64,000 nt of DNA from assembly GCA_020444245.1 (NCBI GenBank), contig JAHLLI010000010.1, positions 1 to 64,000 of the forward strand, read 5' to 3'. Positions 6,047 through 64,000 of this stretch are shown here, piece by piece. The number at the start of each line of letters is the position of its first letter. Position 1 is the stretch's first letter. Under the pieces are notes generated by a model that was not told the origin of the DNA, did not search any database, and saw only the letters and a program-made list of their open reading frames with translations. A program made the translations under genes and the position numbers. Source of the DNA: Actinomycetales bacterium. GTDB taxonomy: Bacteria > Actinomycetota > Actinomycetes > Actinomycetales > Cellulomonadaceae.

Positions 6047-6591
6047 CGGCGCACCTCCAACCCGGCGGCGGCCAGCTCCTCGTCCGAGCCGAGCGCCCGC
6101 AGCACGCGCTCCTCGATGCCCAGCACGTCGGCGTGCGCCACCGCCAGGTCACGGTCGGCGACGTCCAGCAGGTGCACGTACAGCACGCCGTCGTGCCGGT
6201 GCGCCTCGACCACCACGGAGCCCGGGATCAGCGAGCAGAGCTGTGCGGTCAGGGTCAGGTACAGGTCGGAGTGGGAGCGCAGCCGGACCCGGATCACCGC
6301 CGAGCGCGGCCTGCGGCCGTTGAGCGCCAGCCAGGCGACCTGCAGGCTCGCCACCACCAGGTCCCGGACGAAGTGCACCACCAGGCGCAGCAGGCCCAGC
6401 ACCCGCACCCGGCCGTGGAAGTCGATCGTCGGCATGGGCAGCGCACGCACCGCGACCACCGCGATCAGCAGACCGGCGAGCACGTTGGCCACCGACAGGT
6501 CGCCCCACAGCGCGACCCACACCGCGCTGAGCCACGCCACCGCCAGGATGTGGAAGCCGGCGCCCGGACGGCGCCGCGGGTGCAGGCTCAC
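6043..6591 (-). CDS. mnhE: Mrp/Mnh antiporter subunit E
   Basis: A 182-residue subunit with N-terminal membrane segments and a cytoplasmic C-terminal half containing TLTAQLCSLIPGSVVVEAHRHDG-LYVHLLD, the typical MnhE motif. The ATG at 6591 overlaps the end of mnhD by 4 bp. Required for assembly of the complex in characterised Mrp systems. Confidence 0.93.
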   Translation of the reverse strand: MSLHPRRRPGAGFHILAVAWLSAVWVALWGDLSVANVLAGLLIAVVAVRALPMPTIDFHGRVRVLGLLRLVVHFVRDLVVASLQVAWLALNGRRPRSAVIRVRLRSHSDLYLTLTAQLCSLIPGSVVVEAHRHDGVLYVHLLDVADRDLAVAHADVLGIEERVLRALGSDEELAAAGLEVRR

Positions 6592-57637: not shown

Positions 57638-57685
57638 GCGGGCGCACACGCGCTCGCCGTGGCGCCGTCGCAGGCCGGGGGGCGG

Positions 57686-57705
57686 TTCTTCATCGCTTCT
57701 TCATC
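57686..57705 (+). promoter_or_regulatory. Direct-repeat box upstream of the VKOR gene
   Basis: TTCTTCATC-GC-TTCTTCATC, two identical half-sites 11 bp apart, 68 bases before the VKOR start. The divergent pair of boxes could let one regulator switch both operons. Confidence 0.65.
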
Positions 57706-57772
57706 GCCCCTCGACGAGTTCTACGGGCACGGTGCCGATGGTGACCCCACCAAGACCTCGAGGAGCGCCGCG

Positions 57773-58456
57773 ATGAGCCTGGACACCGCAGCACCACCGC
57801 CCGTGCAGCCCGACGACCTGGACCACCTGGCCCCGTCCGGCGACCTGTGGGCCCGCGTGCACCGGATCCGTCACCACAACAGGTTCATCTTCGTGACCAT
57901 GCTCGCCTCGGCCTGCGTGAGCCTGATCGCCTCGTTCGTCCTGTCGATCGACGCGCTGCGCCTGGCGGCGGACCCCGGCGTCCAGCTCGCCTGCGACATC
58001 TCCAGCACGCTGAGCTGCGGCACGGTCGCCCAGGCCTGGCAGGCCCAGCTGTTCGGCTTTCCCAACGCCTTCCTGGGTCTGGTCGCCGAGCCGGTCGTCA
58101 TCACGATCGCCGTAGCGTCGCTCGGCGGGGTGCGGTTCCCCCGCTGGTTCATGCTCTCCGCGCAGACCGTCTACACGCTCGGGCTTGTCTTCGCCTACTG
58201 GCTGTTCACGCAGTCGATGTTCGTCATCCACGCGCTGTGCCCGTGGTGCCTGCTGGTCACGGTGTCGACGACGCTGGTCTTCACCTCGCTCACCCACGTC
58301 AACATCCGCGACGGCAACCTGCCCCTCCCGCCCCGGGCGCTCGCCAAGGCCAGGGCGCTGATCGCCGCCGACGTCGACGCCATCGGTGTCGCTGCCTGGC
58401 TGGTGTTCCTGGCCGCGGCTATCATCGCCACGTACGGACCCGGCCTGTTCGGCTGA
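57773..58456 (+). CDS. Vitamin K epoxide reductase-family disulfide-forming protein
   Basis: A 227-residue membrane protein with five hydrophobic segments. It has the quinone-site motif ALCPWCLLVTV (CPWC) and the loop pair CDISSTLSCGTVAQ, so all four catalytic Cys are present. It reoxidises periplasmic thiol oxidases with menaquinone. ATG 57773 has GAGGAGCG 7 bases upstream; the open frame before it covers the regulatory box. A thioredoxin-like gene lies just downstream on the other strand. Confidence 0.93.
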   Translation: MSLDTAAPPPVQPDDLDHLAPSGDLWARVHRIRHHNRFIFVTMLASACVSLIASFVLSIDALRLAADPGVQLACDISSTLSCGTVAQAWQAQLFGFPNAFLGLVAEPVVITIAVASLGGVRFPRWFMLSAQTVYTLGLVFAYWLFTQSMFVIHALCPWCLLVTVSTTLVFTSLTHVNIRDGNLPLPPRALAKARALIAADVDAIGVAAWLVFLAAAIIATYGPGLFG

Positions 58457-58839: not shown

Positions 58840-59211
58840 TCACCCCGCGGCGAGTCCGCCGTTACCAGGTGGCGGCACGGCATGCGTTGCGAGGACGTCG
58901 GGGAGCTCGGCCGCACCGGGCCCTCCTGCGGCGAGCCAGCCGCGCAGCGCGGCGGTGGCGTTGGGTGCGGTCGCCCCCGCGAGCCACACCGATCCTGTGG
59001 AGCGCCGCTGGGCACGAGCCGGCCGGACGACGATGGCGTCACCGCGGCCGCACTGGTCGAGGCAGTCGACCGTGGACAACCGCACCAGGCCGTCGGCTGC
59101 GAGGGCGCGGTAGCCCTCGAGCTGGGCCACCCATCCCTCCGCGCGACGGGCCGAGCGTTCACCCGCGCAGCTCCGGCAGACGGTCAGGCCGGGGATCGCA
59201 GACGAGTTCAC
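58840..59211 (-). CDS. Thioredoxin-like [2Fe-2S] ferredoxin
   Basis: A 123-residue protein with VCRSCAGE near the N-terminus and VDCLDQCGRGDAIVV in the middle, the Cys pattern of Shethna-type [2Fe-2S] ferredoxins. The start is GTG 59211, overlapping the DUF3105 stop by 4 bp. It probably carries electrons in the cytoplasm. Confidence 0.78.
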   Translation of the reverse strand: MNSSAIPGLTVCRSCAGERSARRAEGWVAQLEGYRALAADGLVRLSTVDCLDQCGRGDAIVVRPARAQRRSTGSVWLAGATAPNATAALRGWLAAGGPGAAELPDVLATHAVPPPGNGGLAAG

Positions 59212-59864
59212 GCGGGGGTCCCGACGCCGCCGCTGCACGGCGCGCCGGGCTCCGGGGTCTGGGGGCCCTGGACGTACTTGACGAGGAACTCCTCGACCCG
59301 CGGGTCGCTCGCGTCGGCGACCTCGAGCTGGACCCCCCACGCCGTGAGCACGATCGGAGCGCGCAGGTCCGCGAAGGGGCTGAGCAGGATGTAGCCGTTG
59401 CCCTGCGCGAGCGTGGTCAGCGTGGCGACCTGCGAGGCTTCCAGGCCCGGCTGGTAGGTGATCCAGACCGCGCCGTGCTCGAGGGAGTGCACCGCATTCG
59501 AGGTCGCGACCGGGGCCGTGTACACGCCGCAGTTCTGTGGGACGGGGTCGTGGTCACCGCCCATCGGTGGCAGAAGCGTGCCGCCTGAGGTACTCGGGGT
59601 CGGTTCGGGCAGAGCGGTCACGTGCTGCGCCGGGAGCCCGGTCTCGGTCTCGACCCCGGGGATCGGTGAGGCAGCCGCGGCCTGGACAGCGGCGTTGTGC
59701 CGACTGGCCTGGAGGATGATCCCGCCCGCGACGGCGATGAGGCCCACGACCACAACGACGACCGACGAGGTGATCACGATACGTCGCCTGCGCTCTGCGG
59801 CTGCCTGTGCAGCACGGATCCGCGCGAGCTCGGCGGCACGCCCGTCAGCCTTCTTCTTCGGCAC
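59208..59864 (-). CDS. DUF3105 membrane-anchored protein
   Basis: A 218-residue protein: basic N-terminus, one helix (IVITSSVVVVVVGLIAVAGGIIL), a linker, then a DUF3105 domain with GGDHDPVPQNCGVYTAPV, NAVHSLEHGAVWITY and HGxxW-like His/Cys residues that could bind metal. ATG 59864. First gene of a three-gene operon. Family function unknown; often found near copper and redox genes. Confidence 0.88.
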   Translation of the reverse strand: MPKKKADGRAAELARIRAAQAAAERRRRIVITSSVVVVVVGLIAVAGGIILQASRHNAAVQAAAASPIPGVETETGLPAQHVTALPEPTPSTSGGTLLPPMGGDHDPVPQNCGVYTAPVATSNAVHSLEHGAVWITYQPGLEASQVATLTTLAQGNGYILLSPFADLRAPIVLTAWGVQLEVADASDPRVEEFLVKYVQGPQTPEPGAPCSGGVGTPA

Positions 59865-59990: not shown

Positions 59991-61448
59991 CTACTGGGCG
60001 GCGATGACCCCCATCATCCCGAGGTCTTCGTGGTCGAGGATGTGGCAGTGGTACACCGTGCTGCCGGCGTAGCGCGAGAACGCGACGCGGACCACCGTCT
60101 GCCCGCCGGGAGGAACGTCGACCACGTCGCGGACCTCGACCGCGTCCACACGCGCACCGGACGTCTCGACGACCTGCATCGGCCAGACGTGCAGGTGGAA
60201 CGGGTGGTTCATCATCGTGGAATTCCGGATGGTCCACTCCTCGACCGTCCCGAGCCGCACCTGCTGGTCGACGCGTTCCGGGTCGAAGGCCTGCCCGTCG
60301 ATGAGGAACTGCATGCCCTGCATGCCGCCCATGCCCATGCTGAAGGTCAGGGTTCGCGAGCGCGTGACCTCGGCGTCGCGCAGGTCGGTCGGCGCGGACC
60401 GCGCAGCGCTCGGGGCCGACGACACCTGGTCGCCACCGGTTGTCAGGGTCAGGATCGTGGCGTCCGAGCCGGCGAGTGAGCCGCCGCCCATCATGCCCAT
60501 CCCGGCGGCTCCACGGTCGTAGGCGTGCGCGAGGAGCGTGGTGCTGCCCGCGGGGACCTCGACCCCGAGATCGGCGCGCCCGCCGGGTGGGAGGACCACG
60601 CGGGTCCGGGTGGGTGGCGGTGAGAGCGCGCCGGAGTCCAGCCCGTACAGCCGCAGCTGGTGTCCGACGTGCTCCAGGTCGAGGTAGCGGCTGGTGCACG
60701 CGTTGATGACCAGCAGGCGCTGGGTGGACCCCTCCGGGGCAGTGAGGGCGGGCGAGATGAGCCCGTTGGTCAGCACGGTCCGGCCCGTCCGGCCCTGCAT
60801 GCGGTCCATGCCCGAGGCCTGAGCGACCCGTCCGGAGGAGATCGTCGTGTCCGAGACCACGACGACGCGCGGAGGTGAGGCCGTCCAGTCGGCGTCGTCG
60901 ACCACGATCGCCCCGTACAGACCGGCGAAGACCTGGTCCGCGACGAGACCGTGATGGTGGGGGTGGTACCAGAAGATGCCCTGGGGGTGGTCGTCGGGCA
61001 GCTCGATGGCGTAGTCGAAGGACTCGCCGGGGCCGACCCGCACGAAGGGGTTGTCGCTGTTGCCGGCAGGCGAGACGAGCAGCCCGTGGGTGTGCAGGTT
61101 CGTCGCCTCGTCCAGGTCGTTGACGAGGTGGACGCGCAGCAGGTCACCGGGACGCAGGTGGAGGGTCGGGCCGGGGACCGTGCCGTTGTACGTGAGCATC
61201 GTGGCCATCTGGTCCCCGATCTGCACCTGGGTCGGGGCGAGCCGGAGCTCGACGTCGAGGACGCCCTGAGCGGAGGTGAGGACCGCCGGCTCGGCCCAGG
61301 TCGCGGAGGGTCCTTCTGTCCGGTTCGTCGAGGGGGTGCCGGACGGTGGCCACCCGCGGGCCCCGAGACCGGCGACGCCGACGGCGAGGCTTCCGGCGCC
61401 GGCCAGACCGAGCGCGAGTGCTTGGCGGCGCGAGATGTCCTTGCTCAT
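59991..61448 (-). CDS. CueO-like multicopper oxidase, Tat-exported
   Basis: A 485-residue oxidase. The Tat signal is SRRQALALGLAGAGSLAVG. All four copper motifs are present: HTH at 119-121, WYHPHHHG at 160-167, HPFHLH at 415-420 and YHCHILDHEDLGMM at 466-479 with T1 Cys468 and Met478/479. A Met-rich insert (GMGMMGGG, later MGMGGMQGMQF) resembles the Cu(I) site of CueO. ATG 61448 has GGAGGGA upstream and overlaps the SHOCT-C stop by 4 bp. It oxidises Cu(I) outside the membrane. Confidence 0.93.
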   Translation of the reverse strand: MSKDISRRQALALGLAGAGSLAVGVAGLGARGWPPSGTPSTNRTEGPSATWAEPAVLTSAQGVLDVELRLAPTQVQIGDQMATMLTYNGTVPGPTLHLRPGDLLRVHLVNDLDEATNLHTHGLLVSPAGNSDNPFVRVGPGESFDYAIELPDDHPQGIFWYHPHHHGLVADQVFAGLYGAIVVDDADWTASPPRVVVVSDTTISSGRVAQASGMDRMQGRTGRTVLTNGLISPALTAPEGSTQRLLVINACTSRYLDLEHVGHQLRLYGLDSGALSPPPTRTRVVLPPGGRADLGVEVPAGSTTLLAHAYDRGAAGMGMMGGGSLAGSDATILTLTTGGDQVSSAPSAARSAPTDLRDAEVTRSRTLTFSMGMGGMQGMQFLIDGQAFDPERVDQQVRLGTVEEWTIRNSTMMNHPFHLHVWPMQVVETSGARVDAVEVRDVVDVPPGGQTVVRVAFSRYAGSTVYHCHILDHEDLGMMGVIAAQ

Positions 61449-61714
61449 CGTCCCTCCAGCGCCTGCAGGCGGGCCGCGAACTCCTCGACGTCGATCTCCC
61501 CTCGGGCCAGCCGCTGCTCGAGGATCTCCCGCGGGTCCGAGACCGGAGAAGGTTCCGTGCCCGGCGGGCGCGCCGACGGCGCAGAGAACCGCCGCCTGCT
61601 GGCCCGCGCGAGGAGGCGAACCACGACGTAGACCAAGAGGCCCGCTCCTACCACTACTAGGCCCCACAGCGCCCACGTCCACACGCTCGCTCCGACATCG
61701 GCGAGATCCGTCAT
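61445..61714 (-). CDS. SHOCT-domain small membrane protein (copy C)
   Basis: An 89-residue protein with one helix (WTWALWGLVVVGAGLLVYVVVRLL) and a SHOCT motif (PREILEQRLARGEIDVEEFAARLQAL). Same layout as copies A and B but without the Met/Gly-rich start. ATG 61714 has AAGGAG 11 bases upstream; GTG 61726 is possible. It is coupled to the oxidase as copies A and B are to cupredoxins. Confidence 0.85.
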   Translation of the reverse strand: MTDLADVGASVWTWALWGLVVVGAGLLVYVVVRLLARASRRRFSAPSARPPGTEPSPVSDPREILEQRLARGEIDVEEFAARLQALEGR

Positions 61715-61797
61715 CGCCGCTACCACTCCTTCCGCTCGTCGGTGTGCTGGACCCGCTCCACCCTTGCGCGGCGACCTGAAAGGCGCGCGCCGGGGTC

Positions 61798-61817
61798 GAT
61801 GAAGAAACGACGAAGAA
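61798..61817 (-). promoter_or_regulatory. Direct-repeat box upstream of the SHOCT-C/oxidase operon
   Basis: TTCTTCGTC-GT-TTCTTCATC on the minus strand, 84 bases before the SHOCT-C start. Same half-sites and spacing as the boxes at 48.6, 57.6 and 57.7 kb. Confidence 0.62.
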
Positions 61818-61924
61818 CCGGACGGGCCGCGGTCTCGCCGTGCCGACCCGGTGGGTGATCAGTAGCGTCGGGCGGGTCCGAAGCCCCATGCCCGGCCTCG
61901 ACCGGGTGGCGGAGGGGGATCGTC

Positions 61925-62275
61925 GTGACCGGTTGGATGGGGATCGCGGTGGCGCTGGCCGCGGCGCTCGCGCTCGTGTGCCTGGCACGGTTCGTCGCGC
62001 GTGCTCGTGGACCCCGCCGCGACCCGGTGACCGTCCTGCCCTTCCAGTCGGGCCACGCGCCGGTCGAGCACGCGATGTCCCGCTACCACGCTCGCTGGTA
62101 CCCGCTCACGCTGCTGTTCCTCGCCTTCGACGTGGAGATGCTGTTCATGTACCCCTGGGCCGTCGTGGTCGCGGCGATAGGGACGGCGGCGATCGTGGAG
62201 ATGTTCGCCTTCCTCGGCGTGCTCCTGGCGGGCGTGGTGTGGGCCTGGCGCGAGGGGGTCATGCGATGGGTGTGA
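61925..62275 (+). CDS. nuoA: NuoA-like complex I subunit
   Basis: A 116-residue membrane protein with three helices and the NuoA pattern: LPFQSGHAP (matching the YECG/SGxxP loop region), RYHARWYPLTLLFLAFDVEMLFMYPWAV with the conserved FDxExxF acidic pair. GTG 61925. First visible gene of a complex-I-like operon, divergent from the copper oxidase operon, with a 10-bp overlap to the next gene. Confidence 0.9.
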   Translation: MTGWMGIAVALAAALALVCLARFVARARGPRRDPVTVLPFQSGHAPVEHAMSRYHARWYPLTLLFLAFDVEMLFMYPWAVVVAAIGTAAIVEMFAFLGVLLAGVVWAWREGVMRWV

Positions 62276-63378
62276 CCCGCATCCGCCGTGGCGTGCACGT
62301 GTTGACCTCCACCGCCGCTGACGGCGTCCTGGTACGCCTGGCGGCCGAGCGCGCGGTGCGGACGCTCGGGTGGGTCCTGGCGTGGTCGCCGGCCGATGCC
62401 GACGTGCTGGTGGTGTGCGGCACGCCGGAAGGCGCCGAGGCGGACGCCGTCGAGCGGGTGTGGCAGCAGTTGCCGGGACCGCGGGCCCGTGTTCGGCTCG
62501 ACGACCCCCAGGACGTCTCCGACGCTCTGGTGGCGGCCGCGGCAGCACTCGAGGACCGGGCCGCCCAGGAGGGGCTCGCGCACGACGCCGACATGGTTGC
62601 GCAGATGAGCACCCAGGGCGGCGAGGACATGGACCACGCAGGGATGGACCACGAGGACATGGACCACGGCGACATGGACCACAGCGGGATGAACCACGAC
62701 CAGATGGACCACAGCCACATGGACCACGGCGGGATGTCCACGGGAGGTCCGGCCGGGATCCCGTTGGCGGAGGGCGCGAGCAAAGACCGGGACGACCTGG
62801 AGATGGATGCGTGGCACGTCGTGCTCGGCCAAGGCCTCCCGGGCTGGCCGGCGGGTCTGGTCCTCCGGGTCGAGCTGCACGGGGACGTCGTGACGGACCT
62901 GCTCGTGCTCGCCGAGCCGACCCCGCACGGGCGGCGCGACACCCCCGTGCAGGCGGCGCTCCTGCTCGACGCCGCGGCGAGCGTGCTGGACCTGGCCGGG
63001 TGGTCGCTGGCCGCGTCCGCATCGCGTCGCGCTCGGGACGACGTGATGGAGGGACGTGACCCCGCTGAGGTCGCTCCCCGGGTCGAGCGTCTCGCCCGGC
63101 GCATGCGGCGCTCGGTGCTGCTGCGCTGGTCGCTGGAAGGGCCCCGCCGCCGCACCACAGGCGACGCGCCCTCAGCCGGCCACCTCGTCCGTTCGCGCGC
63201 GATCGGCCTCCTTGAGGCGGCCGGGTCGATGCTGACGGCACCCGAGCGCGGCGCGCCGGCGCAGCGCCCCTACGACCTGGATGACCTGCCCGCACTCGCG
63301 GTCGGGCAGGAGCTGGCGACACTGCGCCTGCTGGTGGCCGGCCTGGCCCTGGACGCGCGGGTGGCGGCCGATGTCTGA
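62266..63378 (+). CDS. NuoB/NuoD-like fusion without Fe-S cysteines, carrying MDH repeats
   Basis: A 370-residue soluble protein. Residues 30-85 recall NuoB (DADVLVVCGTPEGAEADAVE followed by VWQQLPGPRA), but the four cluster Cys of NuoB are absent; Cys51 is the only Cys. Residues 122-156 are seven Met-Asp-His-x-x repeats. Residues about 178-260 recall NuoD (DAWHVVLGQGLPGWPAGLVL, then RVELHGDVVTDLLV). The rest is helical. ATG 62266. It sits between NuoA and NuoH, where NuoB-C-D normally lie. The resemblance is by eye. Confidence 0.55.
   Translation: MGVTRIRRGVHVLTSTAADGVLVRLAAERAVRTLGWVLAWSPADADVLVVCGTPEGAEADAVERVWQQLPGPRARVRLDDPQDVSDALVAAAAALEDRAAQEGLAHDADMVAQMSTQGGEDMDHAGMDHEDMDHGDMDHSGMNHDQMDHSHMDHGGMSTGGPAGIPLAEGASKDRDDLEMDAWHVVLGQGLPGWPAGLVLRVELHGDVVTDLLVLAEPTPHGRRDTPVQAALLLDAAASVLDLAGWSLAASASRRARDDVMEGRDPAEVAPRVERLARRMRRSVLLRWSLEGPRRRTTGDAPSAGHLVRSRAIGLLEAAGSMLTAPERGAPAQRPYDLDDLPALAVGQELATLRLLVAGLALDARVAADV
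62629..62733. repeat. 15-bp tandem repeat coding Met-Asp-His units
   Basis: Seven units of ATGGACCAC plus six variable bases (one has AAC for GAC). They encode MDHAG, MDHED, MDHGD, MDHSG, MNHDQ, MDHSH, MDHGG. Met and His in this rhythm suggest copper, silver or nickel binding. Confidence 0.95.
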
Positions 63379-64000
63379 GGTGACCGAGGCCGGACCGCTC
63401 TGGGCCGCGCTCGCTCCGGTCGCACTCCTCGCACTGGCCACGGTGGGCGCTGCCGTGGCGCACACCCAGGCCGCACGGGCCCGCGGCGAGGCGGCGCTGA
63501 GCGGTGTCGGGCTCCCGTTCGTGGAGAGTGCGCGGCTGCTGCGTCAACGGCGGCGGGTGACGGTCGCGGCCGACCGGGTGCTGTGGCAGGTGGCCATCGG
63601 CGGCCTGCCCGTGGTGGCCGTCCTGATGGCCGTGGTGGTGCCCGTCGGTCCCGTGGTGCTGGTCGACAGCCCGGTCGGCGTCGTGTGGTTCAACGCGATG
63701 GACGTCATGCTGTGGGCGCTGTGGTGGTTGGCCGGCTGGGGACCGAACAGCGCGCACTCGCTCATGGCCGGCCACCGGTTCCTGGGACTCGCCCTGGCCT
63801 ACGAGCTGCCCCTCATGTTCGCGCTGACCTCCCCCGCGATCGCTGCGCACAGCCTGCGCGTGGCAGACCTGGCCGCGGCCCAGCAGGGCCTGTGGTTCGC
63901 GGTGTGGATGCCGGTCGCGTTCCTGGTCTTCCTCGGGGCCGCCGTGGCGTTCGCCTCCTGGGGGCCGTTCGCGGTCGCCGCGCACGCGGACCTGGCCGGC
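63371..64000 (+). CDS. nuoH: NuoH-like complex I subunit (partial)
   Basis: The first 210 residues of a membrane protein that runs off the right edge. It has about six helices and the NuoH landmarks VESARLLRQRR, GWGPNSAHSLMAGHRFLGLALAYELPL (compare GWxSNSKYxxxGxxRxxxxxxSYE of NuoH). ATG 63371 overlaps the preceding stop by 8 bp. NuoH joins the membrane arm to the quinone-binding subunits. Confidence 0.82.
   Translation, partial: MSEVTEAGPLWAALAPVALLALATVGAAVAHTQAARARGEAALSGVGLPFVESARLLRQRRRVTVAADRVLWQVAIGGLPVVAVLMAVVVPVGPVVLVDSPVGVVWFNAMDVMLWALWWLAGWGPNSAHSLMAGHRFLGLALAYELPLMFALTSPAIAAHSLRVADLAAAQQGLWFAVWMPVAFLVFLGAAVAFASWGPFAVAAHADLAG

Follow-up and report, generated by a model that had tools for sequence, protein, structure and literature searches.

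A complex I-like operon that has lost its redox sites, a candidate proton-driven Cu(I) translocator of Actinomycetota and Pseudomonadota

Results

A redox-free NuoB/NuoD-like fusion in a complex I-like operon

The window analysed here is a stretch of 64,000 nucleotides from an actinobacterium of the Cellulomonadaceae (assembly GCA_020444245.1), comprising positions 1-64000 of a contig that is 168 kb long; the genome totals 4.4 Mb in 44 contigs. An eight-gene operon starts at position 61925 and continues past the window end, in the order nuoA-X-nuoH-nuoJ-nuoK-nuoL-nuoM-nuoN (Table 1). The second gene, here called X, encodes a single protein between nuoA and nuoH, and its open reading frame (ORF) shares 10 bases with nuoA and 8 with nuoH. 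The original prediction for this locus, made from the letters of the window, had proposed a fused, cysteine-free NuoB/NuoD between good NuoA and NuoH genes, and the Pfam matches of the two flanking genes bear out that arrangement. Past the window end the operon goes on with nuoJ to nuoN, and E. coli NuoB, NuoCD, NuoE, NuoF, NuoG and NuoI had no match in positions 60001-80000 of the contig; as a positive control, four ordinary operons were searched, and each was matched by all six queries. The same genome has, elsewhere, a complete nuo operon of the ordinary type (contig C7, locus L108).

By profile comparison and predicted fold, X is a fusion of a NuoB-like and a NuoD-like part. The direct match of its N-terminal half to a NuoB profile was weak (TIGR01957, 1.3e-4, far under the curated cut-off); when profiles of the family described below were compared by hhalign, this half matched NuoB with a probability of 92.0 over 39 columns for the actinobacterial form and 95.1 over 44 columns for the proteobacterial form. 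The C-terminal half is tied to NuoD because the proteobacterial form bridges both, matching the actinobacterial form at 99.6 and NuoD at 97.0; compared directly, the actinobacterial half reached NuoD at 1.1 only. Four crossed profile controls gave 0.2 at most. The predicted fold of the 370-residue protein, which the original prediction had singled out for structural comparison, resembles NuoD and NuoB chains: NuoB chains top the list for the N-terminal domain, with unrelated Rossmann-like chains close behind, and the large subunits of membrane-bound hydrogenase, sulfane reductase and formate hydrogenlyase are among the matches to the C-terminal half.

The sole cysteine of X, C51, lies outside any cluster position, and the cysteines that hold cluster N2 are absent, as had been predicted. 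The quinone histidine motif of NuoD (GPNHPSAHG in E. coli) is lost as well; the segment aligned with it reads GPFFMAFPPG in Halomonas, and its counterpart in the window X, LGQGLPGWPAG, is free of histidine. With no cysteine anywhere in its NuoD-like half, the window X also lacks the NiFe-binding cysteines of group 4 [NiFe] hydrogenases. Between the two parts lies a linker, predicted to be disordered, with a repeat of seven units. These had been described as seven MDHxx units; the repeat is real, with six of its units reading MDH and one MNH. For comparison, 20,000 shuffles of the linker yielded three MDH at most.

Table 1. Coordinates of the operon, of the parts of X and of adjacent features (positions above 64000 are on the contig, beyond the window)
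Feature	Position	Strand	Remarks
nuoA-like, first operon gene	61925..62275	+	116 aa; Pfam PF00507 (Oxidored_q4), 2.6e-26
Gene X, NuoB-like + linker + NuoD-like fusion	62266..63378	+	370 aa; no redox ligands
X, NuoB-like N-terminal domain	62287..62580	+	aa 8-105; no cluster cysteines; hhalign 92.0 to NuoB; model pLDDT 88
X, disordered linker	62581..62802	+	aa 106-179; 9 His; pLDDT mostly <50
X, six MDHxx and one MNHxx units	62629..62733	+	
X, NuoD-like C-terminal domain	62803..63363	+	aa 180-366; no quinone His motif
nuoH-like	63371..64309	+	window end inside gene; PF00146 (NADHdh), 3.2e-21
nuoJ	64306-64866		beyond window; start inferred
nuoK	64863-65165		beyond window; start inferred
nuoL	65162-67054		beyond window; start inferred
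nuoM	67054-68541		beyond window; start inferred
nuoN	68567-69970		beyond window; start inferred; operon end 69970
Intergenic gap separating nuoA from the divergent side	61727..61924	.	may hold the operon promoter; candidate by position only
Multicopper oxidase, divergent neighbour	59991..61448	-	start codon inferred; PF07732 1.7e-28, PF07731 3.4e-26

The operon recurs in two phyla and is often carried on plasmids

A search for X in 296 genomes of the host class returned 34 at an E-value of 0.001, 19 of which were accepted (E <1e-10); the nearest X found, in Actinotalea lenta, is 59% identical. Fourteen plasmid records matched X, seven of them covering 80% or more of the protein. The NuoA-fusion-NuoH order for which other genomes were to be searched turned out to be part of a conserved A-X-H-J-K-L-M-N order, present in 26 of the 30 first-round loci (all found through X and actinobacterial by origin or inference, with the ordinary operon L004 excluded). 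The four exceptions are two broken copies (L045, L046), an isolated piece of X (L062, genome G235) and L065, a false hit that was rejected as a family locus. Searching with the family NuoH led to plasmids of Halomonas and Roseivivax with the same gene order, and among 398 Pseudomonadota genomes queried with the Halomonas NuoH, eight of the eleven top candidates that were read carry the operon; the other three were rejected as ordinary nuo operons. Across 43 loci of this family, the six E. coli queries used above matched only X itself (L100, L101) and a NuoG-like protein in L070 and L096, the former annotated as formate dehydrogenase.

In trees of NuoH, NuoL and NuoM, which include no other branch of the superfamily and whose root is not known, a branch supported at 100, 98 and 100, respectively, separates 35 family sequences from 27-28 ordinary ones. 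These trees allow a single origin of the family and are no proof of it. Hosts include soil, marine and mycobacterial species, and plasmid carriage is frequent. An ordinary NuoH accompanies that of the family in 23 of 24 genomes tested; genome G494 (L103), a draft that is possibly incomplete, gave a family NuoH only and no match to an ordinary one. Several genomes of the class also hold a third NuoH type, about 37-40% identical to the ordinary one (G257:C15:233089, G028:C9:56927 and G301:C8:76247, among others), which perhaps belongs to the other of the 'partial' nuo operons in the Salinispora paper discussed below.

Mobile elements were seen at some copies. In Rhodococcus pyridinivorans (L044) the operon is flanked on both sides by IS3, in Pseudarthrobacter defluvii (L073) an IS3 lies between the parts of X and the copy is broken, and on pHP17a of M. 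avium (L042) ISMav6 and an integrase stand beside the operon. The plasmid copy of Ornithinimicrobium INDO-MA30-4 (L045) has many frame breaks and that of Rhodococcus oxybenzonivorans (L046) has suffered a large loss.

Metal-binding-type material at the junction of X

In the 26 actinobacterial X proteins, the linker, taken as the stretch between residue 96 and the DRD motif, spans 44-182 residues and contains at least five histidines in 21 proteins and at least one MDH in 12. In one proteobacterial group the NuoB-like and NuoD-like parts are separated by HMBD domains (PF19335), of which there are three in L102 (3.5e-44), two in L103 (2.8e-28) and two in L100 (1.7e-31), accompanied by His-rich repeats. 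The X proteins of this group also match the NuoD Pfam family above its cut-off, and that of L103 matches, by sequence alone, PDB chains of the NuoD type, the NuoB type and copper ATPases (best match 6cfw_L, 1.7e-12), its linker matching copper ATPases of solved structure (3rfu, for example). HMBD domains are absent from the window X, which carries at the same junction its MDH repeats, putative metal ligands. The junction thus appears to host metal-binding-type material that differs among relatives, with one group in which none was recognised.

The membrane arm keeps most of its charges and gains methionines

Key residues of the membrane arm were checked in 35 family members (E. coli numbering). 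In NuoL, E144, D178, K229, H254, H338, K342 and K399, seven of the eight positions checked, are kept in all 35, as are K234, K265 and E407 of NuoM, K158, K247 and K395 of NuoN, E36 of NuoK and E81 of NuoA. E72 of NuoK is kept in 34/35, position 79 of NuoA is Asp or Glu in all, and K217 of NuoN is replaced by Glu in three. NuoH lacks E157 in its proteobacterial forms and in one actinobacterial form out of 26, and its E216 and E218 have been altered or lost.

We called a position family-specific when the same residue was shared by 95% or more of 40 family members and seen in no more than 5% of 27-29 ordinary sequences. For some subunits one 'ordinary' row may be the broken family copy L046, which could only weaken the contrast. 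Fifteen of the 46 positions so found are methionines, 11 of them in NuoJ, three in NuoK (30, 69, 73), one in NuoA (82) and none in NuoH, NuoL, NuoM or NuoN, when about one would be expected from the share of methionine among family ORF letters (2.5%); a formal p-value for this excess would mislead, because the family members are related. Seven of the NuoJ methionines (E. coli positions 58, 59, 63, 66, 70, 74 and 76) are placed in transmembrane helix (TM) 3, where those at 59, 63, 66, 70 and 74 fall within 80 degrees on a helical wheel and Y59 is replaced by Met in 40/40 members. According to the accessible parts of a structural study of the Mrp Na+/H+ antiporter, the residue equivalent to NuoJ Y59, MrpA E706, is located on the route proposed for Na+, and this route continues between helix TMH5 of MrpD, TMH3 of MrpC and TMH21 of MrpA (PMC7419157). 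These helices are of the NuoN/M, NuoK and NuoJ types. We take the Met-rich membrane stretch to resemble the Met-lined Cu(I) paths of CusA and CTR1, which are unrelated proteins.

A DNA pattern of the NuoJ methionine stretch was matched in 18 of the 296 genomes of the host class, once in each and always in one of the 19 accepted X genomes, the remaining one being G235 with its isolated piece of X. Among the 398 Pseudomonadota genomes it was matched once in each of the eight that carry the operon. The pattern was derived from family sequences, so that its presence there is by construction and only its absence elsewhere informs: in both genome sets it had no match outside family operons, other NuoJ included, and a reversed control pattern had none at all. 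Natural His-rich tails (for example HHHHH) end NuoJ in the Halomonas-type loci L096, L097 and L098 and in the actinobacterial L041 and L055.

Copper genes recur beside the operon

The copper oxidase reported next to the window operon is a multicopper oxidase by its Pfam domains, and copper genes proved to be recurrent neighbours across the family. Using preset score limits for CopA, multicopper oxidase, DUF305, CsoR, CopZ and CopB, we found at least one copper marker in 12 of 25 family loci from whole genomes (20 kb each) and in 9 of 17 other family loci, compared with none of 24 ordinary nuo loci and none of 20 other windows, each placed at a set fractional position along a contig, in 20 of the same genomes (nominal Fisher p of 9e-5 and 3e-4). 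The ordinary operon is longer and leaves shorter flanks, for which the 20 other windows are the control. Marker queries that were drawn from family loci match themselves at the locus of the window, which is one of the 25 (11/24 without it), and at five of the 17. L051 is counted among the 12 through one CsoR match that scores 36 bits, the limit being 35. Query-free clustering of flanking ORFs from 34 loci gave multicopper oxidase (10 loci) and P1B ATPase (8) as the leading clusters, followed by response regulator (7), CsoR (6), DUF305 (6) and CopZ (5), the cluster names being assigned from earlier queries and annotations. In Arthrobacter FB24 an oxidase, and in Curtobacterium C1 a heavy-metal ATPase, ends less than 90 bases from nuoA on the same strand.

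At the window locus, the genes downstream of the operon include a two-component pair and, at 71847-74150, a P-type ATPase that carries a heavy-metal HMA domain, and VKOR-family, DUF3105 and SHOCT proteins are encoded near the oxidase (57659-58456, 59208-59864 and 61445-61726). Other neighbours were noted at a few loci. After nuoN in L070 (18433-20705) follow egtB and egtD, annotated for ergothioneine, a thione able to bind copper, and L097 and L098 have similar ORFs adjacent to the operon. In L057 a small Cys-rich protein (6132-6572), presumably of the copper storage (Csp) type by its resemblance, is encoded close to the operon and recurs in L054 and L060.

Discussion

We propose, as somewhat more probable than not, that the operon encodes a complex which translocates Cu(I) at the expense of protons, probably for export, and which would be a redox-free member of the complex I/Mrp superfamily. 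The metal, its transport, the direction and the coupling are all read from sequence. Proton-driven movement of Cu(I) is the simplest reading because the proton-handling parts are mostly kept, the electron and quinone parts are lost, and the metal-type cap and the methionines are new; copper is suggested by the HMBD domains of one proteobacterial group, the family-specific methionines and the copper genes nearby, and export by the fit of a cytoplasmic cap with neighbours of the detoxification kind. The original prediction of an ion-pumping module with an altered, metal-binding connector agrees with these observations; the methionines of NuoJ and NuoK were out of its reach, both genes being located beyond position 64000. 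A fuller form of our own proposal, in which a complex I arm was turned into an exporter of Cu(I), perhaps also Ag(I), by a metal-collecting cap and a methionine path at the E-channel and then spread on plasmids across two phyla, we put forward more tentatively, as slightly short of an even chance.

In such a complex, X would cap the cytoplasmic side at the usual place of NuoB and NuoD, and metal would be collected by its His/Met/Asp-rich linker or, in the one proteobacterial group, by HMBD domains. Cu(I) might then move along the methionines of NuoJ and NuoK, where Mrp is proposed to pass Na+, most likely outward, driven by protons entering through NuoL, NuoM and NuoN. As a matter of arithmetic, with an assumed stoichiometry, four protons at 180 mV would provide about 69 kJ/mol, which suffices for a gradient near 10^12.

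Several observations weigh against this proposal. Not all of the arm is kept: E144 of NuoM is Asp in 30/35 members and Arg in one, H305 of NuoN is Gln in 35/35, and E133 of NuoN is Leu, Val or Phe in 40/40. The family members share descent, so that a residue which became fixed in one ancestor does not count as many separate cases, and the seven NuoJ methionines at 58-76 are not significantly one-sided, being matched by 5.7% of random sets. The linker has only 2-3 histidines in five of 26 actinobacterial X proteins, and the Halomonas-type X has neither a His-rich linker nor HMBD domains, with a GEGMMGGVPYGRPMAM-like stretch in that place. Finally, the stretch read holds no copper marker in 13 of the 25 whole-genome loci and in 8 of the 17 others.

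The operon shares with respiratory complex I the subunits A, H, J, K, L, M and N, degenerate forms of B and D, and most key charges of the arm; it differs in having no N2, no quinone histidine motif and no NuoC, E, F, G or I, in the fusion of B and D around a metal-binding-type linker, and in its Met-rich NuoJ. Mrp, too, is a membrane module of the superfamily that works without electron transfer, with a cation path proposed, in the accessible parts of its description, at a junction like that of NuoJ, NuoK and NuoN (PMC7419157). The operon nevertheless has NuoA, X and three antiporter-like subunits, as well as NuoH, which Mrp lacks according to the same text, and Met rather than Glu at the position of MrpA E706. 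Its eight contiguous genes include no MrpE, F or G, for which no aimed search was made. Its likeness to membrane-bound hydrogenase, sulfane reductase and formate hydrogenlyase consists in the large subunits found among the fold matches to the C-terminal half of X and in the match of the L103 protein to 6cfw_L; the window X is unlike those enzymes in having no cysteine-held metal site, because its NuoD-like half has no cysteine. HMBD-bearing CopA shares that domain with some relatives of X and is otherwise an unrelated protein, the operon's module being of the complex I superfamily.

Genes of this description have been published, which qualifies the original claim that no complex of such make-up is described: a 'partial NDH-1 operon' (nuoAHJKLMN) is known from Salinispora, Kocuria and Streptomyces, the same operon by description only, since sequences were not compared, and X is left hypothetical in the accessible text. 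Penn and Jensen (2012) listed the seven genes as a second, partial NDH-1 operon among marine adaptation genes (PMC3314556), and this reading was taken over for Kocuria flava S43 (PMC6002675) and for Streptomyces SM17 and SM18, where nuoA, a hypothetical protein and then nuoH, J, K, L, M and N are listed (PMC6676996), as far as the available parts of these papers go. In those parts a marine, salt or osmotic role is assigned, and X, metal domains, methionines and adjacent copper genes are not treated. Our literature search, which did not reach most subscription journals, returned no paper linking the operon to copper.

That published role would make the complex an H+/Na+ module for salt or osmotic adaptation, with X a mere structural cap and its metal-binding linker incidental. 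It was proposed, in the text available, from the distribution in marine actinomycetes, and the retention of most charged residues of NuoL, NuoM and NuoN suits it; yet it leaves the HMBD domains, the methionine positions and the copper neighbourhood unexplained, and the accessible part of the Streptomyces paper itself records a carrier strain, SM254, from copper-rich mine fluids, for which it invokes osmotic stress (PMC6676996). We regard this explanation as unlikely. It seems doubtful, too, that the complex, instead of exporting copper, imports it or loads it into proteins, for example the neighbouring multicopper oxidase. The oxidase requires copper and is the commonest recurrent neighbour (10/34 loci), but it exceeds its score limit in only 6/25 and 5/17 loci, and the neighbours also include P1B ATPase, CsoR, CopZ and CueR types, which are associated with detoxification.

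A more radical possibility, that copper replaces N2 as the redox centre of a Cu(I):quinone oxidoreductase or its reverse, could draw on the position of the metal-binding linker in the place of the redox module and on the retention of NuoH, the subunit of the quinone chamber; the loss of the NuoD histidine motif, the changed or lost E216 and E218 of NuoH, and a linker whose predicted disorder makes it a poor electron path render it quite improbable. That the operon is a decayed, non-functional remnant of complex I, as the broken copies L045, L046 and L073 and the lone piece of X in G235 (L062) might suggest, is scarcely credible given a gene order kept in 26/30 first-round loci and residues fixed across two phyla.

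Should the operon indeed encode a proton-driven Cu(I) translocator, it would be a second natural system, beside Mrp, in which a complex I arm works without electrons, and would offer a handle on the coupling, within the arm, of proton movement to an event close to the quinone side. The operon would also represent a kind of copper handling now masked by the annotations 'NADH-quinone oxidoreductase' and 'hypothetical protein', and the published reading of these genes as a proton pump for salt adaptation would need correction. As the operon travels on plasmids, its real function bears on which genes count as metal resistance.
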